Assembly (NCBI GenBank): GCA_902780585.1
Contig: CACZGA010000004.1
Location: 1 to 58,255, forward strand
Source of the DNA: an uncultured Erysipelotrichaceae bacterium
GTDB lineage: Bacteria; Bacillota_I; Bacilli_A; RF39; UBA660
Length of the DNA stretch: 58,255 nucleotides
Direction: 5' to 3'
Below, piece by piece: positions 1 through 47,999 of the stretch (its first letter is position 1; each line of letters opens with the position of its first letter). The translations under genes were made by a program, and so were the position numbers. Under the pieces are notes generated by a model. That model saw nothing but the letters and a program-made list of their open reading frames with translations, was not told the origin of the DNA and did not search any database.

Positions 1-527
1 TATAAACGAGATGTCATGTACTCTGGAGGACAAGCCTGCAATTCACAAAGCAGACTTATCAACTCCGAATACTTGAAGCATCCTTTATCTTCATGATGCT
101 GTTCAGTGTCATTCAACAGAGCCTTGAGAGTCTGGTCAATCCAAATCTTATTCTCAGAAAATGACTTGAATTGGCTCTGTGAAAGAGCTTTTACTGCATC
201 CTTCATTGCATTGAATGAGGAAACATTGAAATTACCACGAGTCTTATCCTTGCGAACATATACAATATGTCCACAATTGTCGGCATACTCAATATCATCG
301 AGATGTCTGATAAGATTTTCTTCACATGCCCTCATACGTCTTTCTAAAGATGCAATGAGAATTGGAGAATATGCTCCAATGAGATCTAGAGAATAACCTA
401 CAGATCTCTGACGTGCTGCATCGAGATCAAAATCGGAACCATGTTGCTGCTTATTGCAGTAGTTGATTCCAATCTGACACATCATCTGGATACCATTTTC
501 AGTCACTTCGAAACTAGTATTCTTCAT
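1..527 (-). CDS. hypothetical protein, C-terminus beyond window edge
   Basis: Read on the minus strand, an open frame begins at an ATG at 527-525 and runs off the left edge without a stop, giving at least 175 residues. The N-terminus reads MKNTSFEVTENGIQMMCQIG. The protein is mixed alpha-helical with several Cys and no membrane segment. It uses standard codons with no internal TAG and is clearly richer in G+C than the late genes on the right. I do not recognise the family. The orientation matches the three minus-strand genes at 2331-4058, so it probably belongs to the same early arm, but 1.8 kb without an intact gene lies between them. Confidence 0.7.
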   Translation of the reverse strand, partial: MKNTSFEVTENGIQMMCQIGINYCNKQQHGSDFDLDAARQRSVGYSLDLIGAYSPILIASLERRMRACEENLIRHLDDIEYADNCGHIVYVRKDKTRGNFNVSSFNAMKDAVKALSQSQFKSFSENKIWIDQTLKALLNDTEQHHEDKGCFKYSELISLLCELQACPPEYMTSRL

Positions 528-687
528 ATTGCTAAGTTTGACTACAGAATAGATGCTGTAGTACCATCAGAACGCATGATAATGCACACGAAACATACCC
601 TCATATTGATGGCGAGTCACAACCCCTCCGACTGTGGACTAGGGAAAATTCTACTATTATTCGAATTTTACGATTTGTGTTTTACAC

Positions 688-1140
688 CTAAAACTTAGCA
701 TTGCGTAGGATCACAAGGTCTTTAATTCCCGCTTTACTATTAACTAAGAAACTGGCGTCCTCAACATCTTGGAAATCCAATCTTTCTATTATAGAACCGT
801 TGATTCTAATACTTGAAAGGATATTTTATATTGAGTTTTTTGTTTAAAACCTTCCAGTTTTACGGATAGTGTATCTCCGACAGAGCTATCTTGAATTGAT
901 TTTACCAATGAATCTTTCCCAAGGTAATAGGCTATTTCGTCCTACTCATAGTTGCCCTCTCCAATATTTTATGTCTTATCGGCAACCCCCAAGACTTGCT
1001 GCATCGGCTGAGTTATGACCAAATGCTGTTACCATTTCACAACTCTTTCGATTGTGGAACACACCCATATTTCTATAGGTAGATAACATACGGACAGTTT
1101 TAAAGATACTGCATCTACTACTCTCATACTATGTAAAGTA
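688..1140 (-). pseudogene. possible broken gene with several frame changes
   Basis: Minus-strand translation gives protein-like stretches in successive frames. One (about 1089-985) contains STYRNMGVFHNRKSCEMVTA. A second (about 965-800) contains DSLVKSIQDSSVGDTL. A third (about 800-688) contains RLDFQDVEDASFLVNSKAG and ends at a TAG. The first frame change coincides with a run of five G, where removing one base restores the next frame. The next lies near 800. One TAA also interrupts the middle stretch. This could be a decayed gene, a sequence with homopolymer errors, or partly chance openness. No function is assigned. Confidence 0.35.
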
Positions 1141-1845
1141 CTCCTTTCAACCCTTGCTCTTGCGGATACAGAGGATGCCTCCTCTTACAAGTTGTTTACT
1201 CGTTTCATTTCTATACTTTCCTTGCGGTACTCGTATAGTCTGCGTATTACAGCAGAACAACCGTATTTTCATACGAGAGTGGACAACACTCTTGCTTTTT
1301 ACTTTAAACATTTTAGTGAAATGAGTTAAGCCCATTACTCTTAAATACTTAAAGACCCAATGAATGAATGATGTGGTTGTCCTTGTATATCTTAGTACCT
1401 TTTGAGTACCTTAGATATCTACACCATTCTGTTTTCAGCTGCCAAGCTTACTTACTTCTATTGATTTTATTTATCCTACTATTTCTAACTAAGTTGCCAC
1501 ACTTAGTATTCTCTTGGCAGAGAATATAGGATATTACCAACAGATTATCTACTCTCTTAAGTTGGCGACTTTCGGAAGTAGAATTATACTATATGTTGTC
1601 TTCCTTACGGAACAAGTTGACATTGGATGGATGCCAACGTATACTTCATTTAGTTCTGCCCGAACCTACTACAAAGTATACTTATATAGTATAGCTTTCT
1701 TATGACCACTGATTACTCAGTAGGCAAGTGGACAATACCACTCACTTTATAGCATCGCTGCTTTATTCTCAAAGACAAGAAGCCTGCCTTCCATCACCAT
1801 TCTATACATAAATGTATAGCCGACTACTTTGGACATGTCGGGTGT
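1140..1845 (-). ncRNA. candidate large structured RNA rich in tetraloop hairpins
   Basis: No convincing protein frame covers this stretch, but the minus strand is packed with short perfect hairpins. Examples: 1820-1841 (CCGAC/GTCGG), 1802-1819 (CTATACAT/ATGTATAG), 1727-1742 (AGTGG/CCACT), 1708-1721 (ACTGA-GTAA-TCAGT), about 1597-1614 (TTCC-GTAA-GGAA), 1508-1525 (ATTCTCT-GCCA-AGAGAAT), 1262-1275 (CGTAT-GAAA-ATACG), 1211-1238 (CTATAC/GTATAG enclosing CC-GCAA-GG) and 1170-1185 (AGAGGA-GGCA-TCCTCT). Four loops are of the GNRA class (GTAA twice, GAAA, GCAA), as seen in group I/II introns and in large phage-associated RNAs such as GOLLD and ROOL. I could not fit it to any of these, so the class is open. 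Confidence 0.35.
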
Positions 1846-1869
1846 AGGTTTAAAGACATAGTATTTTAA

Positions 1870-2330
1870 CGGGATTTTTAAAAATCTTATTAAGTTATAC
1901 TAATTTATTTTTTTAAAAATCTAAAAACTATATTTTGCTCTTAAATTTATAGTTGAAATTTCAACTTCAAAATTGAACTTAAGAACGCAGCCAACTTTTT
2001 GGGTTGTTGAGTTTTGAATTGTTTAGGTATTGGTGGCGAATTTGGCTGCACCAAAGAGCATATCTCTAACACAAATATTTTACGTGAAACATTAGCTCCA
2101 ATGCGTGAAACATACACCTAACTTGAGTTATGAAGAAAGAAACCCTATATTCTCACGAACTTAGGGTTTCTTTATTACATTATTCACAATTCTATAATTG
2201 AATCCTACTTTCTCAAGCAGGAAGTATCCAGACTGCCCAATTTGACTTTCAGAGAGTCCGAATACAGAGAGCAGATGATTGTCAGAAAGGATGTGGGTTT
2301 TATCCCACACCCTTCCTAAGACAGTAATCA
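1870..2330. promoter_or_regulatory. AT-rich intergenic region with repeats
   Basis: No gene is seen here. The region holds a palindrome (GTTGAAATTTCAAC at 1952-1965), an inverted pair GCAGCCAA (1987-1994) / TTGGCTGC (2042-2049), and two direct copies of CGTGAAACAT (2083-2092 and 2104-2113). It also contains a bidirectional terminator at 2139-2174. The A/T-rich block around 1870-1950 is a plausible promoter area for the candidate RNA to its left. The two CGTGAAACAT copies start 21 bases apart and could be protein-binding sites. Function is inferred only from this layout. Confidence 0.4.
2139..2174. terminator. bidirectional rho-independent terminator
   Basis: A perfect 9-bp stem, GAAACCCTA at 2139-2147 pairing with TAGGGTTTC at 2162-2170, is flanked by T-rich sequence on the plus side and by a TTTC-type tail on the minus side. 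It lies downstream of the minus-strand gene that ends at 2331. Confidence 0.65.
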
Positions 2331-2867
2331 TCATGCGAACGTGAACACAGGCACCTTGCGAGTACGAGTACCCACAATCTGACCGTCACGGTTGTAACGT
2401 GCTGCGCGAACCTCGTTGATCTCAGCAACCTTCAAGGTCTTACCCTTGATAGCCTTCCAGACATCAAGGTCATTCGGACACTGATTGGCAGCATCATACA
2501 CATCGTGTACATCGTCCGTCTTGGCATAGGAAATAGTTCCAGTGGGAAGCATGTCCTCGCCATACTCTGCTACGGAACGGTCAAGAGCAGAGAAATACAG
2601 AGTCTTAGCACCGATAGTACCCTGAGCAGACTTGCAAGGTGCCACTACACCATACAATTCATTACCATTGAAGGTGTTCTTGAACAGACTCTTGTTGTCA
2701 GCAGGAATTGCCAACTCGTCTCCGATGGCAAACTGAGCTGCACCTGGGTCGCTCTTGGTTCTCTTACTAAGGCTGCTTTCAATAGCTGCACCACTGTTAC
2801 CTGTTCCCATTCTCTTCAGGGCGATCTCAACTGCACCCTGAGCATTCTTTACTTCATTTTGTGTCAT
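2331..2867 (-). CDS. hypothetical early protein
   Basis: A 178-aa protein starting MTQNEVKNAQGAVEIALKRM. It is soluble, with no membrane segment or signal peptide, and ends with a basic stretch (RTRKV) followed by PVFTFA. The stop is TGA. It has no internal TAG and its G+C content is visibly above that of the late region. It is the third gene of a minus-strand series reading left from the control region at 4059-4574, separated by 103 bases from the gene upstream. A short GTGGG/CCCAC hairpin at 2293-2308 lies just past its stop. I do not recognise the family. Confidence 0.8.
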   Translation of the reverse strand: MTQNEVKNAQGAVEIALKRMGTGNSGAAIESSLSKRTKSDPGAAQFAIGDELAIPADNKSLFKNTFNGNELYGVVAPCKSAQGTIGAKTLYFSALDRSVAEYGEDMLPTGTISYAKTDDVHDVYDAANQCPNDLDVWKAIKGKTLKVAEINEVRAARYNRDGQIVGTRTRKVPVFTFA

Positions 2868-2970
2868 TTTTTTTGAAGTTTTTAAAAAGTTAATAATTAA
2901 TGTTATTTACTACTGTAACGTCAGCACAAACGGGTCACTGTTTAACGCACAGTGACCGAAGCGTATATTT

Positions 2971-3435
2971 TTACTCCTCGTCTAAGGATTGTTCCTTTAC
3001 TATAGGATACTTCTCAAGCATCTTAGCCACAAAGGCATCGACCTCAGTCTTCTCTGTGGTCAAATTGAGCCAGTCAGCCATTGGCATAGATTCCTCATAC
3101 ACCTTACCAGAAGTCCACTCATCCTTCTCCTTGTCACGAGAGATTTCACACTTCTTAAAGGTGACACGATCCAGAATCAGAGAATATCCGACAGGAGTAT
3201 AAGCGAAATATTGACGCCAATACTCATTGAAGTTACCCCAACGAGGTGACATGTCCATCTCAGGCTTGATACCTTTAAAGGTAAGTCCAACGTTGATAGC
3301 AGACAGATCCTCATTCTTACCACCAGCAGCCAAATCATTCACAATACCTGTGAGATCAACCCCATCTTCTGAAAATAGAAGTTGCTTCAGTGCATTTAAG
3401 GTCATTGCACTAATCTCGACCATACCCTGTTTCAT
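2971..3435 (-). CDS. hypothetical early protein
   Basis: A 154-aa acidic protein starting MKQGMVEISAMTLNALKQLL and ending QSLDEE, with a TAA stop. It contains aromatic-rich segments (about residues 64-85: RWGNFNEYWRQYFAYTPVGY) suggestive of a compact globular fold. No catalytic motif, membrane segment or cysteine cluster is visible. It is the middle gene of the three small minus-strand genes, with the same higher-G+C composition and standard code. Function unknown. Confidence 0.8.
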   Translation of the reverse strand: MKQGMVEISAMTLNALKQLLFSEDGVDLTGIVNDLAAGGKNEDLSAINVGLTFKGIKPEMDMSPRWGNFNEYWRQYFAYTPVGYSLILDRVTFKKCEISRDKEKDEWTSGKVYEESMPMADWLNLTTEKTEVDAFVAKMLEKYPIVKEQSLDEE

Positions 3436-3585
3436 ATTGTTTAATTGTTTAAGTTTGTTTATTCAGTTTGTAGTCTTTAAACCACCACAGAAAAACAATA
3501 TATACATACTGCTCTGCTGTAGACATTAGCAGGCAATACATATGGCTACGTTTTACCTATTGCCAGGCAGACCTGGCAAAAAAAT

Positions 3586-3607
3586 AGCCACCCGAATGGG
3601 TGGCTAA
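3586..3607 (-). terminator. rho-independent terminator after 3630-4058 gene
   Basis: On the minus strand TAGCCACCC-ATTC-GGGTGGCTA is followed by seven T. The 9-bp stem lies 22 bases past the stop of the gene at 3630-4058. A second perfect stem, TGCCAGG/CCTGGCA at 3562-3579, follows it. Confidence 0.8.
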
Positions 3608-3629
3608 AATCGAGAGAGAGTGGTGCGGT

Positions 3630-4058
3630 CTATTTCGTAACCACACCATAACGACCGTGAAAACCGTTGACACGACCGACAACGTGAGTCAAATTAAATT
3701 TGTAGCCGTTGTTTTTCAGGGCATCAAGCACATCATCATAGGTTGCACCCTCTTCAACAATGCCAGGTCGAGGAGTGAGGTTCCCATCATCTGTCACGAT
3801 AGCAGCTTTTCCAGAGAGAGCAGAGAGAGCCACAGCCTGCCCGTCGACATCGACGACAGGGTAAATCTGTTGCTGACCTTTTCGGTCGGTGTAGGTACCC
3901 TTAAAGAGAGCAATCTTCTTAGCGTTACCGCTACCAGTAGTTTTTACTTCGTGCTGTCCCGACGTAATGTCGAGCAAAGAACTACGGCGGTCTTTTTGTT
4001 TCAAAACGAGTCCGCTAAACTCGTTTGCCGTCATTGGCTGTAATCCATTCGTTGTCAT
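3630..4058 (-). CDS. hypothetical early protein ending in TAG
   Basis: A 142-aa protein starting MTTNGLQPMTANEFSGLVLK, first gene left of the divergent control region. It is basic, with Gly/Asn-rich turns and no membrane segment; the C-terminus reads VNGFHGRYGVVTK. Its stop codon is TAG (minus strand, 3632-3630), and a strong terminator stands directly after it, so TAG is very probably a true stop here. This contrasts with the right arm, where TAG is a sense codon. If TAG were read as Gln, translation would continue through the terminator stem. Function unknown. Confidence 0.8.
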   Translation of the reverse strand: MTTNGLQPMTANEFSGLVLKQKDRRSSLLDITSGQHEVKTTGSGNAKKIALFKGTYTDRKGQQQIYPVVDVDGQAVALSALSGKAAIVTDDGNLTPRPGIVEEGATYDDVLDALKNNGYKFNLTHVVGRVNGFHGRYGVVTK

Positions 4059-4574: not shown

Positions 4575-5303
4575 ATGAAACAACATATAGAATTGCCATC
4601 AGAAAAAGAAAATTCTGAATTAACTCCTAAGGATAAGCTAATATATTTAGCATTAAAAAGCTTTGAAAACAGTGAAACACATGATTGCTTTCCTTCCTTA
4701 GCTAAAATTTCAGAAAGATGTGGAGCTTCAGAACCTACAATTAGAAAATCTCTAAAGTTATTAGAATCTGAAGGATATATTAAAATAGAAGAGATAAATA
4801 AAAGAAAAAAGAGATATACATTTAGTCCTTATAAAAAATTTGAATGTTTCTCATATGATTTTTTATATAATAATGATTTAACCTTTACAGAAAAATCTTA
4901 TTTAGCGGCTTCTCAAGAATTCATGTTAAGTAAAGAAACAGGAAAAGGAAAGATAGAATATTCTAGTTATGAATTGTCTGATAAAATCAATATGCCTCCA
5001 TCCACTATAAGAAAATGTGAAAATTCATTAATAGCTAAGAATTACATGGAAATAGTTTATCAAGCCAAAAAAGATTTAGTAAATAATAATCATAAAGGTA
5101 CTAAGTATTATTTATTTGCTGAATATAATAAGGCTGTTTGTGATGCAATTATATCTCATGAAAATAGATTAACCACAGTAGAAGAGAAGATGGATAATTG
5201 GGAGAAAAAATATGAAGATAAATGTAAAGAAGCAGAAAATTATAAAAACGCTTATTTGCAATTAGCTAATAAGATTCAAGAAGAAAATAAAATAATAATG
5301 TAA
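4575..5303 (+). CDS. winged-helix DNA-binding protein, early regulator or replication initiator
   Basis: A 242-aa protein. Residues about 18-80 form a classic winged helix-turn-helix of the GntR/DnaD-like sort: a helix reading KDKLIYLALKSF, then CFPSLAKISERCGASEPTIR as the helix-turn-helix and KSLKLLESEGYIKIEE leading into the wing. A second similar unit follows (ELSDKINMPPSTIRKCENSL, about 137-156), so the protein has two wHTH units, as in Rep-type initiators and some phage regulators. Residues 195-240 form a charged coiled coil. The stop is TAA and there is no internal TAG. It is the first plus-strand gene after the control region with three short repeats. A replication or transcription role is inference. 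Confidence 0.75.
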   Translation: MKQHIELPSEKENSELTPKDKLIYLALKSFENSETHDCFPSLAKISERCGASEPTIRKSLKLLESEGYIKIEEINKRKKRYTFSPYKKFECFSYDFLYNNDLTFTEKSYLAASQEFMLSKETGKGKIEYSSYELSDKINMPPSTIRKCENSLIAKNYMEIVYQAKKDLVNNNHKGTKYYLFAEYNKAVCDAIISHENRLTTVEEKMDNWEKKYEDKCKEAENYKNAYLQLANKIQEENKIIM

Positions 5304-5305
5304 TT

Positions 5306-5866
5306 ATGTTATACTTAATTAAAGAATATGGTAAAAATAATAAAGAATATTTAAAAATAGGAAAAGCACATGATGTAAATAAAAGAATACAACAGTATAA
5401 TACTAATTGTGCTGAATTTGAATTAATAGATACTTTTGAAGGAAGTCTTCCAGAAGAAAGCTTATTACATTCTTTTTTAGAAAAATATAAAATAAGAGGA
5501 GAATGGATGGAATATAATAATGAAATACTTTTATTATGGAAATTATACAAAGAAATAAGACCTAAAATAAAAGAAAGCATACTAGCAACCGGAGAATTTG
5601 TTGAGGAAGAACTTTATAATTCTCAAATAAATTATTATCAAAATAAGATAGAAGAAGTACAAAATGAAATAAAATACTTAAAAGAAGATTGTTTACACAA
5701 ACTAGAACAATTAGAAAATAGAACTTCTAATTTTTCTGAACTATATAACGAAAGTACCAATTTAATTCAATTCATACTTAAAATAATTCCTTTAAACTAT
5801 AGAACTCAAATATTTGAAAAGTTTAAAGGAAAATTACAATATTTTAAATTTAAAGAGGAAATTTAA
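5306..5866 (+). CDS. GIY-YIG-like (T5orf172/MUG113) protein
   Basis: A 186-aa protein starting two bases after the previous stop. The N-terminal ~75 residues match the T5orf172 / MUG113 branch of the GIY-YIG fold: LYLIKEYG near the start, YLKIGKAHDVNKRIQQY (about 20-36) and a conserved-style Glu and His in LPEESLLHSFLEKYKIRGEW. The remaining half is a coiled coil with a hydrophobic C-terminus. Such domains occur widely in phages as stand-alone or DNA-binding-fused proteins. Nuclease activity is possible but not shown. There is no internal TAG and the stop is TAA. Confidence 0.65.
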   Translation: MLYLIKEYGKNNKEYLKIGKAHDVNKRIQQYNTNCAEFELIDTFEGSLPEESLLHSFLEKYKIRGEWMEYNNEILLLWKLYKEIRPKIKESILATGEFVEEELYNSQINYYQNKIEEVQNEIKYLKEDCLHKLEQLENRTSNFSELYNESTNLIQFILKIIPLNYRTQIFEKFKGKLQYFKFKEEI

Positions 5867-6344: not shown

Positions 6345-6416
6345 TGGTTTATGGTGTAATGGTAGTCACAGGGGACTCTAAATCCTTTAGTCTGGGTTCG
6401 AATCCTAGTAGACCAA
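6345..6416 (+). tRNA. suppressor tRNA, anticodon CUA, probably Gln
   Basis: A full cloverleaf can be drawn. Acceptor TGGTTTA (6345-6351) pairs with TAGACCA (6409-6415). The D-arm has GTG/CAC. The anticodon stem GGGGA/TCCTT encloses the loop CTCTAAA with anticodon CTA. The T-arm is CTGGG-TTCGAAT-CCTAG, and the discriminator is A at 6416. The CCA end is not encoded. The CUA anticodon reads UAG. The weak U1-A72 first pair is a hallmark of bacterial tRNA-Gln, so Gln is the likely charge, which agrees with TAG falling in Gln-rich contexts downstream. Confidence 0.93.
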
Positions 6417-6418
6417 CT

Positions 6419-35200: not shown

Positions 35201-36272
35201 TGTATCTGTTCCATTAGATCCTGTTATGTATGAAATGGTTGTCGATATTAAGATTGGAGGAAAAATAGAACAATTAAGATAGAAGTTTACATTATGTAAT
35301 GAAGCAGCTGGAGGTATTGCTGTACAAGGTCCTATATGGGGATTACTTAATAATTCTTATGTTCAATAGTTTGGAGTTAATTTTGATTAGGATTTATTTA
35401 CTAAGTCAATTGGAATACTTCTCACTGGAGATATTAGTGTAGATGGACAATATCAAAGCGGATCTTCTTATATAAATGTATCTGATAATCTAAATTAGAT
35501 TACAAATCTAATAGCTATTTCTGGAGGAAGTATATTTAATTATTTACCAAATATCACAGGAATTAAATTAGATGGATTAACAATTCCTTCTTAGTCAAAT
35601 GATGGAGGTACAACTATTACAAATATAGATTTAACAGGTCTTACTAAACTTGAAAGATTCTCTGTATAGAATTGTACAGGATTAACTCAAGATATAGATT
35701 TAACAGGATGTCCAGATATTACACAAGTTGATGCTAGTGGTACTACTATAAACGTATTTATACCTTAGAATGCTAAATTAACTAAGTATGAATTAGGTAG
35801 TCCTACAAGTATAAGTATTATTAATCCTACTGTACTTACTGTTGGAGGAGTAAATGTAGATGTTTGTGAAAATATAACCTCATTAGATATTGTTAATATT
35901 CCAAATAATAAAGGATTTACAATATTTGATAAAATATATGAACCATTATATTCAGGAGAATTTACAGAGAATGGAAGTTATATTAGATCAGAATATATAC
36001 AAAATCCAGGATTAACAAAAATGCGTATATCTAGAATAGGAAATAGTATTGGTTATACATGTCAAGTAAATGGTTATTCGAATTCATCAGATACAAGAAT
36101 AGATTATTGGGCTCTTTATGCAGATAATTAGTCTTCTTATAGAAATATAAATACTAGTACTTTTGAAAGAATCAAAGTTGATGTAGAGGCATCTGTTCCA
36201 ATAGGAAGTGGATGGAAAGTAACCAGTGAGGATGAAAGTATAACAATATTTAAATGGATTAGATTATCATGA
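29223..36272 (+). CDS. giant tail protein with CotH-kinase-like module
   Basis: A 2349-aa late protein made of many TAG-joined pieces. Fragments at 29550, 29907, 30387, 31167, 31650, 32160, 32652 and 33876 share the frame, and the stop is TGA at 36270-36272. Residues about 710-1150 match the CotH (spore-coat kinase-like) fold: GQSTLNYPLTSYKLW (767 on), FVLQANYADSSG (about 819-830), FLGQYVFMDDKK (938 on), a helix with LVDSLERNAQ, and HYEPWDMDIALG with D1143 and D1145. Downstream are beta-rich regions, and residues about 2100-2200 show leucine-rich-type turns (NIDLTGLTKLERF, DIDLTGCPDITQ). The N-terminal 300 residues probably attach to the virion. A kinase or glycan-binding role for the CotH-like part is inference. 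Confidence 0.8.
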
Positions 36273-38440
36273 CACATTTAAAGATAGAACAAAATAACGG
36301 AATTACGGAACAAGTGTCTCCATCTGTTATCGAGAAATTATATGAAATAGTACATAGTGGAAATTTAGACTCCTCAAGTAACCTTATAGGGAGTCTAAAT
36401 ACCACTAGTACATATTAGGATTATGTAGACTATCTTGAGGAGTAGTTTACTAAAAATGGAGTTAGATAGTTAATTATTACTGCTAATAAGTTATATATAT
36501 CTTTTAACGATCCTGCTGTTGAAAGTTATTGGGCAAATAGTGTATATGGAGATGGTACAGGTATAACTACGACAAGTGCTGCTACTATTACCACCATATA
36601 TAATAATCCATTCTTTGGGAATACTGATATTACAAACCTAGACGGAATGTAGTATTTTATCAATTGTACTGATATAGGGCAAAGATTTGCAATGAATGCA
36701 ACAAACCTTACATCTTTTATAGCACCTCCTAATCTTACTAGTTTATCTCATCCTGGTAACTTAGATCCTGCGTTTTTAGGGGCATTTAGAGGTTGTAGTT
36801 CCTTGTCAAACGTAGTATTGAATGAAGGATTAGAAATGATAACAAACCAATGCTTTTCTGGATGTACATCTTTAACCACTATCGATATACCAAGTACGGT
36901 TACCAAGCTAGCATCAAATACAAGTTTTACAGAAGGAAGTTATAGTGTGTTTTATGGATGTTCCGCATTACAGACAGTTACCGGTGGAGAAGGTATAATC
37001 GTATTAGGACCAAGCGCATTTAATGGTTGTTCGAATCTTCGTTCTATTTCTGATATAGATTTTTCACAAATTACACACATTGGGGAATTGTGTTTTAAAG
37101 AATGTTAGAATCTAGAATTAGGCTCCGTTAATTTACAAAATATTACTACATTATGGAACGGTACGTTTTACAATTGTAAAAAACTGACAAGCCTTAATAT
37201 TCCAAATGTAACAGAGATAAAAGATATTACAAATTTTTTAAATGAAGGGGCTTGTAGAAAATGTACAGGGTTAACTACTGTAACAACCGGACAAAACCTT
37301 AGTAAAGTAGGAAGTTATGCGTTTCAAGGTTGTTCAGCACTAACTACTATTGGAGATTTATCTGGTGTTACAACTATTGGTAATAATGCATTTGAAGGTT
37401 GTTCATCATTAACTAGTGTTGGAAATTTATCTAATGTTACAACTATCGGTGCAAATGCATTCAAAAATTGTTCATCATTAACTACTGTTGGAGATTTATC
37501 TAATGTTACAACTATTTAGGGAAGTGCATTTGAAGGTTGTACTAGTTTAACAGCAATAAATTTTAATCATAACAATGTTACGTTTGATGGACATGTCACA
37601 TTCCATAATTGTACAAGTTTAACAACCGTAACAGGAGCTGAAAATGTTATAACGTTCTCACATAATACCTTCAATGGATGTACAAACTTAAAAAATATTA
37701 CTGTAGGTGAAAATACAGATATAGCTGGAGGTATTTTTCAAAATTGTTCAAACTTAGAAAAAGTTCAAGGAGCAAAATTTGGAAAAGTTTGTGATAATAA
37801 TTTTATAGAAAACACATTTTCAGGATGTAGTAAATTAAAATGTATTGATTTTTATTTTTAGTCTTCCGCTGTTACATACGATGGATTATTTAGTGGATGT
37901 AGTCAATTATAGGATCTAACTACAAATGATCCAAATAGTATAAATACTGGAGAACAAACATATACATTTCAAAATGTTACACGTCTTCATTCTGGAGTAT
38001 TTTTTGGAACTACTTCATTAATAAATAAAATATTTGTTTTCCCTAGTTTAACAAGTATAACTGGCTAGCATTGTTTTTCAAATTGTGGTGCAAAAAGTTT
38101 TAGTGCTCCATTATTAACTTCTTTAGGAGCTCAATCATTTGCATCATCTAATTTTCAAACAGTAAGTATTCCGAGTGTTACGTCTCTTCCAGAAGAATCG
38201 TTCCTTAATGCTTCACAATTATAGAGTATAGAATTGCTAAGTGTTACAAGTATAGGTAAAGATACTTTTAAAAATTGTACAGCTCTTACAACAGTGAAAG
38301 TTGGAAGTAATTTAACTACAATGGGACAAACTCCATTTACGGGGTGTACAAGTTTAACTACTATATATGTACCTTCTGCAAAATTAAGCGACTATCAAAC
38401 ATCATTCCCAGACATAGCTAGTATGATGGTATCATATTAA
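36269..38440 (+). CDS. BspA-type leucine-rich-repeat tail adhesin (paralogue 1)
   Basis: A 723-aa protein. Residues 1-105 are an N-terminal module (MTHLKIEQNNGITEQVSPSV, later FNDPAVESYWANSV) shared with the next gene. The rest is a long series of BspA-like repeats (LRR_5 type) with units such as AFxGCSSLTSVGNLSNVTTI and CFSGCTSLTTIDIPSTV. Ten TAG codons are read as Gln. BspA-type repeats of host bacteria bind mucin, fibronectin or cells. In a phage tail they may bind host surface glycans or proteins. It overlaps the giant tail gene by four bases (ATGA). Confidence 0.88.
36364..36399 (+). repeat. inverted repeat inside BspA paralogue 1
   Basis: TTTAGACTCC (36364-36373) and GGAGTCTAAA (36390-36399) are perfect 10-base complements with a 16-base loop. 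AGTGG and CCACT continue the pairing outside after a short internal loop. It lies in the conserved N-terminal module of the gene. Confidence 0.75.
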
Positions 38441-38472
38441 TATAACTGGTTACTGTTATTTTTTTGAAAATT

Positions 38473-40155
38473 ATGACACATTTAAGAATAGAACAGAATA
38501 ATGGAGTAATAGAAGAAGTTTCTTCAGAAGTTATTAAAAAATTATATAATATTGTACATAATGGTACTTTAGATAATACTAGTAATCTTGTAGGTAGGTT
38601 GCATACATCAGCAACCTACCAAGATTACATAGATTACTTAGAAGATACTTTTAAAGTAAATGGAGTTAAATAGCTGATTATAGATTCTACTAATATATAT
38701 ATACATTTTAACGATCCGGTTGTAGAAAGTTATTGGGCGAATAGTGTAGGAGATGGTGTCGGTGTAACAACAATATAGGCGTTAAATGTAACAAATATGC
38801 CACAAAATGTATTTAATAACACAACCGTAACATCATTTAATGAACTTGTATAGTTTGGTATAACATCTCTTCCAAGTAATTGTTTTAATGGAGCTACGAA
38901 TTTAACATCTATAAATACAAGTAAAATAACAGATTTTGGTGATAGTTGTTTTAATAATTCCGGTATAACATCTATAGATTTGTCGTCTTGTAATTATTAC
39001 GTAGGCGAATCCGCTTTTAATGGATGTGCTAGTTTATAGTCTGTTATTTGGCCAGAACGTTCCTTTAATATGTATAAAAGTGCATTTTAGGGGTGTACTA
39101 GTTTATAGTCCGTAGATCTTACTTATCTTAATAATAGTAATGCAAATTACGCAATACGATAGTCTTGTTTTGGCGGATGCACAAGTTTGACTTCCGTAAT
39201 AATTGGTACAAATGTAAAAGCTATAGATGCTTGGGCATTTAGCAACTGTCAGTCACTTTCTTCTATAAATTTATCTGGTATAGAAACGATATCTTCTTCG
39301 TTTGACGGTTGTAGTTCACTTACGTCTATAGATTTATCCAGTTGTATAACTATTGGGAGTGAAGCTTTTAATAGATGTACTTCTCTTACAAGCATAGATT
39401 TATCATCTTGTACTAGTATTGGAAAAGAAGCGTTTAAAAATTGTACATCATTAACAACAATTACATTGGGAAGTAATATAACACTTGGATCTTATGTTTT
39501 TGCTGGATGTACTTCATTAACTACAATAAATAATACACATTATATTACTTAGATGGGGTCAACCAACGATTATGGTCCATTTAATAATAATGACACCCCA
39601 TTCTCATCATTGGTTATAAATAACCCTAATTTTAGCGGTGTAACTACTACTGGTACGTATGCATTTAAAGGACTTTCTGGTTTAACTGGAACTTTAATAC
39701 TAGGTACAATAACAAATATGCGTAGTGATTCTTAGTTGTTTAAAGGATGTTCTGGATTAACTAAAATTGTAATAGGAAGTATACCATCGTTGAGTAGTTC
39801 TTATACTAATTGGCAAAATTCTTCTCTTTCTAATTGTAATAATCTTCAAGTTTTAGATATTGGTAATATTACCAAATTTACTCTAAGTAGAAGTTCACTT
39901 ATAACACACAGTACAAATTTTAAAGCACTCATATTAAGGCAAACTACTCCTCCGACAATAGAGATAGCTAATGGAAATGCTGCTTTGACAGTTGGTTTTA
40001 ATTAGTTTGTTATTTCTGATCTTACACCAGCATATAGTCAAGCAAAGATATATGTTCCTGATGCAGCAATAAGTAATTATGCATCTGCACAACATTGGAG
40101 CAATTTATATAACGACGGTTATATACTTCCATTAAGTAGTTATGTCGAGTCTTAA
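38473..40155 (+). CDS. BspA-type leucine-rich-repeat tail adhesin (paralogue 2)
   Basis: A 560-aa paralogue of the previous gene. The ATG at 38473 is chosen because it aligns with the MTHL start of paralogue 1, although the frame opens at a TTG nine bases earlier. Residues 1-100 match the shared N-terminal module (SNLVGRLHTSATYQDYIDYL, FNDPVVESYWANSV). The repeat region contains units such as AFNRCTSLTSIDLSSCTSIG. It ends with a short domain containing IYVPDAAISNYASAQHW. Several TAG codons occur. A 32-base gap separates it from paralogue 1. The pair probably arose by duplication and gives two versions of one adhesin. Confidence 0.85.
38582..38628 (+). repeat. long inverted repeat inside BspA paralogue 2
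   Basis: GGTAGGTTGC (38593-38602) pairs with GCAACCTACC (38611-38620) around an 8-base loop. GTAATCTT (38582-38589) and AAGATTAC (38621-38628) extend the stem to 18 pairs with a 3-base bulge. It is at the same codon region as the inverted repeat of paralogue 1 but with a different stem sequence. Confidence 0.85.
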
Positions 40156-40297: not shown

Positions 40298-40405
40298 ATG
40301 CCAAAAATAGTTAGTAGACCAAAACCTATGCGTAGAAATTTAACTAAAAATGGAAGATAGTATAATAATGGAGGAAAAACGTAGAGTTCTACTAAGAAAT
40401 CGTAA
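40298..40405 (+). CDS. very small basic protein
   Basis: A 35-aa strongly basic peptide (MPKIVSRPKPMRRNLTKNGR and on) with two TAG codons, ending in TAA. The start follows an A/T-rich leader and the gene overlaps the next one. Such tiny basic late proteins can bind DNA or act in the capsid. It could also be a non-coding stretch with a short frame, hence moderate confidence. Confidence 0.45.
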
Positions 40406-40769
40406 AATATTTCTAATATTTACTAAATATCTATCTCATATACTAGGTTTTGGATATATAATTTATACTTTACTGGGATTTTTCGGAATAGATGCTGTAG
40501 AAATTGGATATTTAGTTCAATTATCAGTATTGCCTTGGTTTTATGCTTTTTCAGCATCAGTAGCTCTTGAATTTTGTTATGTTCACAGGTTACCTTTATA
40601 TTATATAGCAATAGATGAATTAGCATTAGTAATAGATAATTATTATACTATTCCTTTAGATTCATATAATTTATTTTTATCTCATTTGTTTCTAGTAGGA
40701 TTATTAATTTTCGGATATACATATTATTATGTTAAAAATCATAAGAGAAATACTACAGCGATATATTGA
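40350..40769 (+). CDS. integral membrane protein, about three membrane segments
   Basis: A 139-aa protein with hydrophobic segments at about residues 24-47 (FTKYLSHILGFGYIIYTLLG), 52-75 (LVQLSVLPWFYAFSASVALE) and 106-127 (LFLSHLFLVGLLIFGYTYYY), and basic ends. Without TAG. It could be a holin or another inner-membrane late protein; the topology suits a holin, but it is 28 kb from the amidase. A second Met at codon 7 (40368) is an alternative start. Confidence 0.65.
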   Translation: MEDSIIMEEKRRVLLRNRKIFLIFTKYLSHILGFGYIIYTLLGFFGIDAVEIGYLVQLSVLPWFYAFSASVALEFCYVHRLPLYYIAIDELALVIDNYYTIPLDSYNLFLSHLFLVGLLIFGYTYYYVKNHKRNTTAIY

Positions 40770-42509: not shown

Positions 42510-42971
42510 ATGTTTTCAGCATTATCACAAGGAAGTTCTATCTATTTGTTAGATAAAACTTCCTCTCCTAAATTTGTAATTGGAGAAATTGTTGGAGTAA
42601 CACAACCTAAATATAGTTTTAATTAGGCTACTGTAGATTTAAAAGTAAAAATTGATGATTCTATTTAGGAATTTAATAATCTTCCGAGTATTAATAATAT
42701 AGTAACTTATAATAATGGAAAAATTATTATAAGTGAAACTAAACAAGGTATTCAAAATGAAGTAGAAACCATTTTAACTAACAGTAAAAATATTCTTGAC
42801 AATATCGATACATATAAACAAAATATCGAAGATTGTGAATATATTCTTAAATAGTTAAATCCATAGTTTGCTAGAGATAAAGAAAGAGATGATAGACTAT
42901 AGAATCTTGAAAATAGATTTGATGGTGTAGAATCTAAATTGGATAAAATTTTTGAATTTATAAAGAAATGA
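42510..42971 (+). CDS. late protein with beta N-terminus and coiled-coil C-terminus
   Basis: A 153-aa protein with five TAG codons. Residues 1-75 are beta-rich; residues 80-153 are a coiled coil (DRLQNLENRFDGVESKLDKI). This layout is common for small tail or baseplate trimers. It begins one base after the previous TAA. Confidence 0.65.
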
Positions 42972-43182: not shown

Positions 43183-43569
43183 ATGAGACTAGATCTGTAC
43201 GATGATAGACCTACTTCTATGAAACGTTATTTAAAATATTATGGAGAACACTTCAATAATAAATTATGCGAATTTGCTATTTCTAAAATGAATCACGGAA
43301 AATCTCCAGTTCAAAAAGAAAAAGTGGATGAAATATTAACTAAACATAATGTTAAACTAGAACATAATTAGTTATGCGATTATGTATATGTTTATAATAT
43401 GGGAAATAACGATTATATGGGAAGTAGTATAACAGACGAGAAACATCTAGCATTGTATGTTAAAGATGTTATAGATGATAAAGATGGATATGATGGAATA
43501 GTATTTAATAGATGGTATGCTGATATGGTAATTCAAGGAATTCCTATTGAATGGGATGATATGTTATGA
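43183..43569 (+). CDS. conserved crAss-like protein
   Basis: A 128-aa protein with one TAG. ATG at 43183 is preferred to an in-frame TTG at 43177 that overlaps the previous stop. RYLKYYGEHFNNKLCEFAIS resembles a segment I recall as widely conserved in crAss-like phages. The C-terminus is acidic. Role unknown. Confidence 0.65.
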
Positions 43570-43964
43570 TTATAGATAAATTTTTTATTTATAATTGGAA
43601 GATAACTATTCTATATGAAACGACTTGTGATGATATTGATTATATAATGAAAACATTAATGGATATAAATTGTCCTAAATATTATATAGAAAGAGCCCTT
43701 GATAATTTAGAAGAATGTAAACTAAATTCTGGGTTAACATATTCAAACTCAAAGTTAAGAAGTTCTGTTATTATAATTAATAAAACAAGTTCATTTTCAT
43801 AGTTAATAAATACCATATCACACGAATATTTTCATTTAATCTGTCATATTTCAAAAGAATTAAATATAGAAGATGAAGAAGAATTAGCTAGTTTAAATGG
43901 AGATTTAAATATGCGTTCTTATAAAATTGTTAAAAAGTTAGAAGAAGAAGTAGGTTCTGAATAA
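43566..43964 (+). CDS. possible zinc metallopeptidase, HEYFH motif
   Basis: A 132-aa protein with one TAG just before the motif. ISHEYFHLICHISKEL contains HExxH with H86, E87 and H90, the zinc-binding and catalytic signature of many metallopeptidases. The short length suits a minimal domain. It may process a virion or host protein. A possible third zinc ligand follows, but it is not clear. It has a strong terminator after it. Confidence 0.6.
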
Positions 43965-44105: not shown

Positions 44106-47100
44106 ATGGCACAAAATAATGAGGAATATATTGGAGATTCTGGTAAGGTATTGTGTTTAAGAAATTCTGGTCAAATAAAATTATAGTATGGAAATAGATA
44201 TATAAATTTATTTGATTCCGAAGGTAATTTAAACGCTAAAATTAAAAACCTAATACATGTCGGACCAAAACCTACTAATTCGTCTTAGGACGGATTTTAT
44301 TTTACTCCAGGTAGTGGTAATATTCTTCCAAAATTTTATATTAAGCAAGGAAATCAAATATTAGAAGTTTCCAATGAATCTTCTAAAACAAATTTGCCTG
44401 AAGGAAGTATTATAATGTATAAAGGTTCTTAGGCTCCAGATGGATGGTAGAAATTTAATGCTCCGACTGATATAAGTGGAACGATTTATATCATTAATAG
44501 TACTGAACAAGGAGCAGGAACTCCAGACCTTTATGATATTTGGTTAGATTGGTTAGATTCAAATAATAATAGAGTTATTACAGCTACTGCTAAAATGGGA
44601 GAACCATTTAATTAGCCTTAGTTAAGAAATTTAGTAAATAGTTAGGTCCAACTTTAGTATGAATATTCATCTAGTGATATTGGAGTTGCTACAATTGATA
44701 GTAATGGAACAGTGAGACTTGTATCTCCAGGATGGACTATTATTAAAGCTGAAACACAAGCAAATGGAATTCATAAATATGATTATGCATCATATACATT
44801 AAATGTAACTTCAGCAGAAAAAGCAATTGTTATAATCTCTGTTTCTAATTAGAGTGTAGCTAATACAAATACTACCTATACTCCAGTAATGGGTGTAACA
44901 GGAGCATCCTTAAGTGAAATAGAACTTTAGAAAACTTCTGATCCAAACAATATTATTAGTAGTATATCTGGACAAATGATGTCTTTGACAGGAAATGTAG
45001 GAACGGCTAGTTTACGTGCTAGTATTTCAGAAACTAGTTCTCATAAGAGTGCAAATTCTGGATTTACATTAACTGTTACAGGAACTTAGAAAACAGAAGT
45101 TACTATAAATGCTTCTGATTAGACAATAACTAATGATAATGCTACTTATACACCAACTATAACTGTTACAGGAGCTTCTTTAAGTGAACTTACACTTACA
45201 AAGAGCGGAGATTCTTTAAATAGTATCATTAGTAGTATATCTGGAAGAACATTAACACTTGGTGGAAGTACAGGAACAGTTGCATTAACTGCTACTATTC
45301 CAGAAACTAGTACACATTATGGAAAAACTAAAGGATTTTTATTATCTGTTACAGCAGCTTAGTAGTAGTCTTCTTTCGAACCTTATACAGTCGGATTAAT
45401 TTCTGATGCACACTATTGTGTTATGAGAGGTTCGTAGTCGATTGTTACTTGGGATAATGCTAACGATTCAACTACAGATGCAAGTAGCTTATATGATAAA
45501 GATTTAAAGTATTTATTAAATAATCCATTTAGTAATGTTGATTTTGTAGCATCAACTGGAGACTTAGCTGAATGGGATATAAACGATTTTATTAAATTTA
45601 CTTCTGATTTTAAATCTGCAGCTCCCAATAAGAGATTTTATTCTTGTATGGGTAATCATGATCATTAGGTAGTTTATGGTACAAATAAATGGACTAAATA
45701 TGATTCAAATCATGAAGAAATAGGATCTCCTGATGGAAGTAGATGGCGAGGTGTAGGTAATTATGATTGTCCTGGAAGTTTATCTGGACAAAGTGATTTA
45801 TCATATTATATTCAAAAAGGAAATGATATGTATATATTCTTGTCTACTAACTATGGTAGTTAGAATATTAATCATGATGGAGCTTAGTGGGCACACCCTT
45901 AGAATCAATTAAATTCGAGTGATTCTTATGTTTAGTAGATGATAAATTTATGTGGAGTAAATTCATTTACTGGTAATGAATCTAACTTTAATTTTTAGTA
46001 TTATTCTCCTTCTGATTTAATATGGTTATATAATTTAATTAATAATAATCAAAATAAGAGAAAATTTATATTTGTACATCATTTTCTTCCAAATAAAGCT
46101 GGTGGCGGAAATAAATTTGAATCAGGATAGTCATCTGTATTAATGGGTATAACATTCCATTTCTTAAATTGGCTTAATGATTAGTATCCCCAAAAAACTA
46201 TTTGGTTTAGTGGACATTCTCATATAAGTTGGAGAGATACTTCATTAAATGGAGAAGTACACTGGTGTAATAAAAATTATGATTATATTAAACCTTCATC
46301 TTCAGACAATACAGCAATATCATTAGAATCAAATTATACAAGTAATAAATATATTTCTAATAGTGAGGCATACAATAGAAACGGAAGTACTATTAGAAAA
46401 AGCGGAAGTGCATGGACAGTACATTTACCAAGTATGTCAAGACCTTGTACAATTGCATCTAATGGAGCTACTCCAGTACGTAATATAAATGATTGTGAAG
46501 CAGCTATTATGAGGGTATATGAAAATTATGTAGAAATAGAAAAATTAGCATATACAACTTCTGATGGCGGAACTACTTATACTAATGCATATACTATTGC
46601 AGATAAAACATTAACTGTAAATAATGATGGAACTGGAAGTAGTAGTGGAGAACAAGTAGGCGATTCTGATTATTTTGAAATAAGAATAACCAATAATCTT
46701 AATGTTGATGCTTTATACTCAGGAAAGATGGAAATAAAAATAGAAGAAATTAGTACTGGAACTGCAGTTTGGATGCCTTTATTCTATAGTCCACCTACTG
46801 GAGAATATAATGGAAAATCAAGATGGTATACTAATATTCTTAAAATTGAAGCAGGATAGTCTAAAACTATAAGATATACTAAATTTATAGATTATACTGA
46901 TGACTATGGATATCCTGATTATCATGAATACCAAATTAGTGAGTATGCTAATGGAAATTATCGTTTTAATTCAACTGATGAGGGACCTTCAGACAATTCT
47001 CCTAATGTAAAATTTGCCACAGCATTAACAGGTGAAACCGATAACACTACGAATAATGCATTCTATATAGCTCCTTTAAGTGGAACAATTAATAAAAATA

Positions 47101-47999
47101 CAACTTATAATCTTATAATAAGTTAGCTTGGAAATAACTATTCTGGACGTACGTTAGCTCCTTATACAGGAAGTGAATCAGGTGGAGGAAACACTCCAAC
47201 ACCTTCTGGAAATTTTGGAACTACAAGATATCCTTTAATATTTATTAGAGTAGGACTTAAATAGAACAGTACTTATTCTATTAGTGATGTCAATACAAAA
47301 ATAAAGTTTGTATTTGATGATGGTACCTATGTTTATGGTTATAAAGGAGATTCTTGTGAATATTCTAATGGAGGTAGAGAAGCATTTAGAATTTAGAATA
47401 AGAATGGACTTAATGGTACTATAGCAGGATATATGTTCTTTACATCAACAGTACTTAAAAAATATTCTAATGAACAAAATCCAGATATTCCAGAAGCTTT
47501 AAGATATATTTGTTGGGGTTCAGTTATTGGAAGTTATGCTAATCCAGCATGGGATCCAAATAATAAGGAGACATCTCACTTGGATTATAGAGATGACTAG
47601 TCTAAATATGTTATGGATGGAATGCCAGTAGGTAGTACTATTACTAATTTTAATTCTACAGGAAACTAGCCTTCATTTGAAACACCTTATTTCTATACTG
47701 CTTAGGGTAATCCTAGACCAAGATGGTACACTAGTACTGAAATAGACTAGTTAGAGGAACATTTCTACGATCTTATGGATAATTATTTAGGAAAAACTAT
47801 AATTAGTGCTAGTGTTTATCGATATAATGGTACTACAGGTGGATCTTGGACTGAACAAGAAATTCCAGCTACTTGGCAAATCTATGAATACGATAAAGAA
47901 GGATCTAATGATAATGTTGGGTCTTTATGTAGTGATTAGACTACATTTAGAAACGGAAATACTAGTGCTGATGCTGTAATGTATAAACTATTTGTTTAA
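44106..47999 (+). CDS. tail fibre with collar-like, Ig-like and metallophosphoesterase domains
   Basis: A 1297-aa protein with many TAG codons. Residues about 97-118 read PEGSIIMYKGSQAPDGWQKF, like the phage tail-collar motif. Residues about 235-430 are two Ig-like repeats (VTGASLSE... units, about 90 aa each). Residues about 428-710 form a calcineurin-like phosphoesterase: SDAH (D434, H436), TGD (D486), GNHD (516-519), VHH (H658, H659), GHSH (703-706). All five metal-site motifs are present. The C-terminal 580 residues are beta-rich. The enzyme domain could remove phosphate groups from a host surface polymer or nucleotide; the substrate is unknown. Confidence 0.88.

Follow-up and report, generated by a model that had tools for sequence, protein, structure and literature searches.

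Two tandem genes for BspA-type LRR proteins each contain a strong inverted repeat in the coding sequence of a shared N-terminal module, and the paired sequences differ between the two genes. Are these hairpins one structure that selection holds at the same codons, as a preliminary description of the locus proposed, and what could a hairpin at this place do?

The tandem LRR genes belong to a crAss-like phage

The window, by which we mean the whole stretch of 58,255 nucleotides analysed here, is a contig of a gut crAss-like phage. The capsid gene matches Crass_capsid, the Pfam model of the Crassvirus major capsid (E 5.1e-13), and the terminase is less than 60% identical to the matching Crassvirales records. 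The genome carries both a crAss-type capsid and a crAss-type terminase, the pair of genes by which crAss-like phages are recognized. Its genes are open solely when TAG is read as Gln, and a tRNA gene with the anticodon CTA (6345–6417, plus strand; labeled Pyl by ARAGORN) is a plausible candidate for a TAG suppressor. Positions 1–4058 have a G+C content of 0.36–0.44, compared with about 0.29 in the phage part, and minus-strand genes unlike the remainder; this segment may belong to a different element or result from a chimeric join.

LRR gene 1 (36269–38440, plus strand; Pfam LRR_5, E 6.7e-82) is an open reading frame of 723 residues when TAG encodes Gln. Its homologues begin at MTHL, corresponding to a start at 36269, and an in-frame ATG at 36254 is also possible. 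LRR gene 2 (38473–40155, plus strand; LRR_5, E 1.5e-50) is a tandem paralogue of 560 residues. The N-terminal module of gene 1 (36269–36595, plus strand; about 109 residues, MTHLxIEQ...) has profile matches in other crAss-like contigs, and it aligns without gaps to the module of gene 2 (38473–38796, plus strand) at 62–63% identity.

Both LRR genes carry an exceptional hairpin

The hairpin of gene 1, W1, spans 36350–36411 (plus strand), corresponding to +82 to +143 of the coding sequence. It contains the perfect stem ATTTAGACTCC/GGAGTCTAAAT (36363–36373 and 36390–36400), which is extended beyond the core by GTAC.TAGTGG/CCACTAGTAC. The whole fold has about 22 bp and a small inner stem, with two outer stems around a 12-bp core, and its folding energy is -29.2 kcal/mol (z -5.66; none of 200 dinucleotide shuffles is as strong). 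The hairpin of gene 2, W2, spans 38574–38636 (plus strand; +102 to +164). Its perfect 10-bp core, GGTAGGTTGC/GCAACCTACC (38593–38602 and 38611–38620), is enclosed by an outer stem of 9 bp (38582–38590 and 38620–38628), and the whole fold of about 25 bp has an energy of -28.1 kcal/mol (z -5.68; again 0/200). When the codons are permuted gene-wide, preserving the protein and the codon usage, none of 500 synonymous shuffles matches W1 (z -6.87) and none of 500 matches W2 (z -6.27). The window contains 33 perfect stems of at least 9 bp, and stems of 10–11 bp alone are unexceptional in this A+T-rich contig. Unlike such bare stems, the complete folds of W1 and W2 are exceptional. Rfam gives no match above the gathering score; its one chance match (E 0.63) lies outside the hairpins.

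The preliminary description was right that both paralogues have perfect stems of differing sequence, and the structures are larger than it stated, the outer stem of gene 2 having 9 bp rather than 8 bp. Its placement of the hairpins at equivalent codons does not hold. In the alignment of the modules, the core of gene 1 pairs +95..+105 with +122..+132, whereas the core of gene 2 pairs +121..+130 with +139..+148, and the 5′ arm of W2 overlies the 3′ arm of W1. The two hairpins share a region and occupy different places in it.

The LRR module does not require the hairpin

A profile search of the fetched crAss-like contigs identifies ten further N-terminal modules at eight loci (L011, L020, L021, L057, L063, L085, L086, and L088). 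Single-protein queries against viral contigs, against phage records, and against 59 relative genomes give no closer relatives of W1 and W2. Weak profile matches in genomes (L091–L094, E ~1e-3) are read as chance, and at least three of them resemble HrcA by eye.

In 7 of the 11 LRR modules tested by synonymous shuffles, the strong hairpin is missing. Such shuffles detect no strong hairpin in L021, L085, L086, or either L011 gene, all of which keep the protein, and in L057 the hairpin is weaker (2/500). The first gene of L020 has a strong 16-pair stem elsewhere in the module, at about +31 to +65. At the same locus, L071 encodes a different N-terminal module, also with an extreme hairpin; an apparent relative of this module, in L079, contains a stem at the corresponding stretch. 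A significant helix is also present in a related module from L099, a crAss-like phage of pig origin. Because most homologous modules lack a strong hairpin, the LRR protein does not require it.

In addition, by the refutation criterion that the preliminary description set for itself, the homologues do not support the proposal that one structure is kept while its bases change. Among eight aligned modules, 57–64% of the cells are paired in the registers of W1 and W2. In the W2 register, covariation does not exceed that of column shuffles (133 of 500 reach the observed count), and in the W1 register it is weak (8 cells versus 3.7; 3/500). Compensatory changes in a fixed register distinguish two other gene families, B and A (see below), from W1 and W2. 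What recurs in the LRR genes is a hairpin in a general region and not a fixed structure.

The N-terminal modules are mosaic. The first ~120 nt are common to the second gene of L020, L021, L085, and L086 at 77–100% identity, which then falls to 33–63%, and the first gene of L020 is 97% identical to L021 solely past about nucleotide 120 (compared segments: L020:1144–1323, L020:2330–2509, L021:1484–1663, L085:2186–2365, and L086:2760–2939). This pattern of identity suggests an exchange of the downstream part of the adhesin. At L088:5001–5323, the reading frame of the module ends after about 70 residues, and a tRNA-Ser gene (5247–5323) comes directly after it. The adhesin could be truncated here, or the tRNA could mark the site of an insertion or of an assembly join.

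Strong hairpins are concentrated at the 5′ ends of crAss-like phage genes

As first described, the finding is weaker than claimed, yet it led to a broader pattern that replicates. We scanned 919 coding genes, taken from the window and from related contigs, for ungapped helices and compared each gene with its own synonymous shuffles. Strong helices (score at least 26) between +30 and +105 number 17, 21, 18, and 15 per 15-nt bin, compared with 1.1–3.3 expected. At the 5′ ends, 57 of the 919 genes have a strong helix versus 8.3 expected, and at the 3′ ends 11 versus 9.2. The 5′ bases of the helices are concentrated at +20 to +40.

The effect was discovered in the window group and was therefore tested on separate data, consisting of pieces of four crAss-like records (cr55_1, cr273_1, MT835470, and MT835539). 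In this independent set, strong helices are found at 20 5′ ends versus 2.1 expected and at 3 3′ ends versus 1.9 expected. When the 238 crAss-like genes are tested one by one, 18 have p ≤0.01, where 2.4 would be expected. The phages T4, B40-8, and SPO1 combined give little signal (3 5′ ends versus 1.1 expected), and bacterial stretches give a mild 5′ excess (7 versus 2.3).

The signal is unevenly distributed. At p 0.01 it appears in 18/38 genes of family C, 14/66 of family A, 18/140 of the group with family B, and 3/16 of the LRR and fibre group, and there is little of it in the capsid, the 41177 family, or the large tail protein. With one randomly drawn member per family, the share at p ≤0.01 is 4.9%, against 2.3% for control segments. 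The class is therefore genuine, although the enrichment comes mainly from a few families (A, B, and C).

W1 and W2 resemble the class in strength and differ from it in position. Within about the first 165 nt, both fold far above their synonymous versions (0/500 each); the centers of their cores, at about +113 and +134, lie beyond the +30 to +105 zone. Past +105 the enrichment is weaker (5 and 5 helices versus 1.0 and 1.8 expected in bins 105 and 120, and 3 versus 1.9 in bin 135). A literature search of incomplete coverage found no prior report of coding hairpins in crAss-like phages.

Compensatory changes maintain the hairpins of families A and B

Family A is represented by a gene in the LRR gene block (42510–42971, plus strand; MFSALSQGS...). 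Its conserved 5′-coding hairpin, AGGAAGTTCTATCTA/TAGATAAAACTTCCT, lies at +21 to +55 (42530–42564, plus strand), and none of 500 synonymous shuffles of the window copy is as strong. Across 25 sequences, 90.9% of the cells are paired, and 17 cells are compensatory versus 6.7 in shuffles.

In the 24 sequences of family B, a helix of 17 pairs occupies +35 to +74, and 93.9% of its cells are paired. Both sides have changed in 11 of the 17 pairs, and 36 cells are compensatory versus 10.1 in shuffles (0/500). All slid registers are far lower in covariation. Some of these changes alter the protein with pairing preserved: L041 combines I to V with Y to H, and both L046 and L072 combine N to D with GTT to GTC. 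The member of family B in the window (43566–43964, plus strand) lacks the hairpin (p 0.18).

The selection for the hairpin itself that was proposed for W1 and W2 is supported for the class, by the 5′ enrichment and by the covariation in a neighboring family, and it fails in the form of a structure conserved at the same place in the two LRR genes. Family C provides a closer counterpart. The member in the window (40350–40769, plus strand) has no hairpin (p 0.12), and many relatives have long 5′-coding hairpins that differ in register and sequence. The shifts within family C are the same behavior as that seen between W1 and W2.

Mismatches bear on which strand might act. Family B has more G.U than A.C (37 versus 7), the pattern that sense RNA should show, and A.C lies beneath its own shuffles. 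G.U, too, falls short of its shuffled value in families B and A, because Watson–Crick pairs dominate there. Over the class as a whole, G.U and A.C number 147 and 101 in 5′ helices and 50 and 33 in control helices. Because this comparison does not separate 5′ helices from controls, the sense-strand RNA is unproven as the acting form in general; RNA is presumably the acting form rather than a DNA strand.

The hairpins probably act on translation

We favor the reading that W1 and W2 are outlying members of this class of 5′-coding mRNA hairpins and that the class probably acts on translation, and give it a probability of roughly 0.55. That they are elements of the same kind is suggested by how strong they are, by where they lie in the gene, and by the behavior of family C. 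Of the roles listed in the preliminary description, the best fit is a regulatory RNA structure or a translational effect, the mechanism itself being our inference.

On this model, W1 and W2 would be mRNA stem-loops in the early coding sequences of two tail-adhesin genes, kept by selection acting on synonymous changes and on those amino-acid changes that are tolerated, and for the class a position near the start would outweigh the exact sequence or register. Most class helices begin just past the footprint of the initiating ribosome and could act in cis as a barrier right after initiation, slowing or gating ribosomes. Such a barrier would set start selection and the output of single genes within a polycistronic late message, which these genes presumably share. 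W1 and W2 begin further in, at about +82 and +102 on the distal margin of the enriched zone, which makes it more probable that they influence early elongation than that they help in choosing the start codon.

Coding-region stem-loops near the start that act by structure and position include the alphavirus DLP and the flavivirus cHP, which differ from the present class in that they belong to RNA viruses of eukaryotes and occur as one element per genome rather than in many genes. One parallel is START (Structure Assisted RNA Translation), a stable coding structure just 3′ of the start codon that is proposed to hold the initiating ribosome; it begins at about +16 to +19 and has no sequence consensus, and the screen covered cellular genomes by folding stability (PMC7664666). 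Only family A, which begins at about +21, comes near this position. W1 and W2 begin well past it (+82 and +102), too far downstream for the steric model of START. The crAss-like class differs from that screen in being found in dsDNA phages and in showing covariation. In plants and human cells, double-stranded elements shortly 3′ of AUGs (uAUG-ds and mAUG-ds) influence start choice (PMC10499604). As would hold for the phage hairpins, they are recognized as structure and not as sequence; their setting differs, with eukaryotic scanning ribosomes and helicase control. Bacteroidota is the phylum infected by Crassvirales (PMC10136315). Its mRNAs lack a Shine-Dalgarno sequence, and structure tunes initiation; in Flavobacterium johnsoniae pairing is low from -20 to +20, and the accessible part of that study does not describe strong hairpins deeper in the coding sequence (PMC6847099).

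The main rival to a translational role is that the hairpins protect or process late polycistronic mRNA. A stem at a cistron boundary would block nucleases, or be cut by a double-strand RNase, giving each gene its own message stability, and where genes abut, the stem would be forced into the coding sequence. We regard this as unlikely, while granting that several observations agree with it. The stems of W1, W2, and family C reach 20–25 bp, the upstream gene abuts in 37/246 hairpin genes versus 29/497, and boundaries of 40–400 nt with an intergenic helix seldom add a coding hairpin (3/95 versus 21/193). However, the abutting effect is gone (p 0.41) without families 0, 3, and 4, which contain B, A, and C. 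The stems of families A and B have 14–17 bp, which makes them short substrates for RNase III, and a cut within the coding sequence would destroy the message. A translational role is favored because the helices have their 5′ bases at +20 to +40, because initiation in Bacteroidota is tuned by structure, and because downstream hairpins that aid start selection are known from eukaryotes and have been proposed for bacteria.

A functionless origin is improbable. Template switching during replication could perfect imperfect inverted repeats, and the hairpins of W1, W2, and L020 are indeed unrelated in sequence and register and absent from most relatives. Such a by-product is already disfavored for the class, since it does not predict the strong 5′ polarity, the much lower rate in control segments, or the compensatory changes in families A and B. 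It is more improbable still that conserved amino-acid sequence coincides with A+T-rich codon usage. The conserved peptides KVIV and DYNL of family B are encoded by reverse-complementary codons, as a coincidence would have it, but synonymous shuffles would then fold equally well and instead fall short of the observed folds, and family B shows compensatory changes. Least credible is the earlier suggestion that the hairpins guide recombination swapping LRR domains between adhesin genes: the mosaic breakpoints fall in the stretch occupied by W1 and W2, but hairpins are missing from the breakpoints of the mosaic modules, and unrelated genes that do not encode adhesins (families A, B, and C) bear like hairpins, which makes such guidance unlikely.

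A wider proposal is more tentative, and we place it somewhat below even odds. CrAss-like phages may use hairpins after the start codon as a widespread, sequence-independent control of a defined subset of genes, in which register and sequence are free to change and the need for a stem drives amino-acid replacements; the tandem LRR adhesin genes would then hold two examples, each evolved independently, that adjust the dosage of adhesin. In the human gut, crAss-like phages rank with the most abundant viruses, and their late-gene regulation is little known. If early-coding hairpins set the output of each gene, their presence would be a legible mark of dosage control over adhesins and other late proteins. 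They would also be a prokaryotic parallel to eukaryotic control by downstream hairpins, and would caution against taking synonymous conservation at phage gene starts for protein constraint.

Other features of the window and its relatives

A large protein encoded at 44106–47999 has a calcineurin-like phosphoesterase domain and repeats of Ig-like appearance, and is possibly a fibre-associated enzyme. A hairpin in its gene was flagged by the helix score and was excluded from the count, its folding energy being ordinary. In the crAss-like phage cr55_1 (L098:38749–40074), an annotated reverse transcriptase lies close to tail genes. Arms resembling CCCCTAACT form a strong intergenic hairpin that recurs 5′ of the 41177 homologue in many related contigs, for example at L077:9857–9889, L071:9850–9882, L069:9855–9887, and L064:9845–9871.
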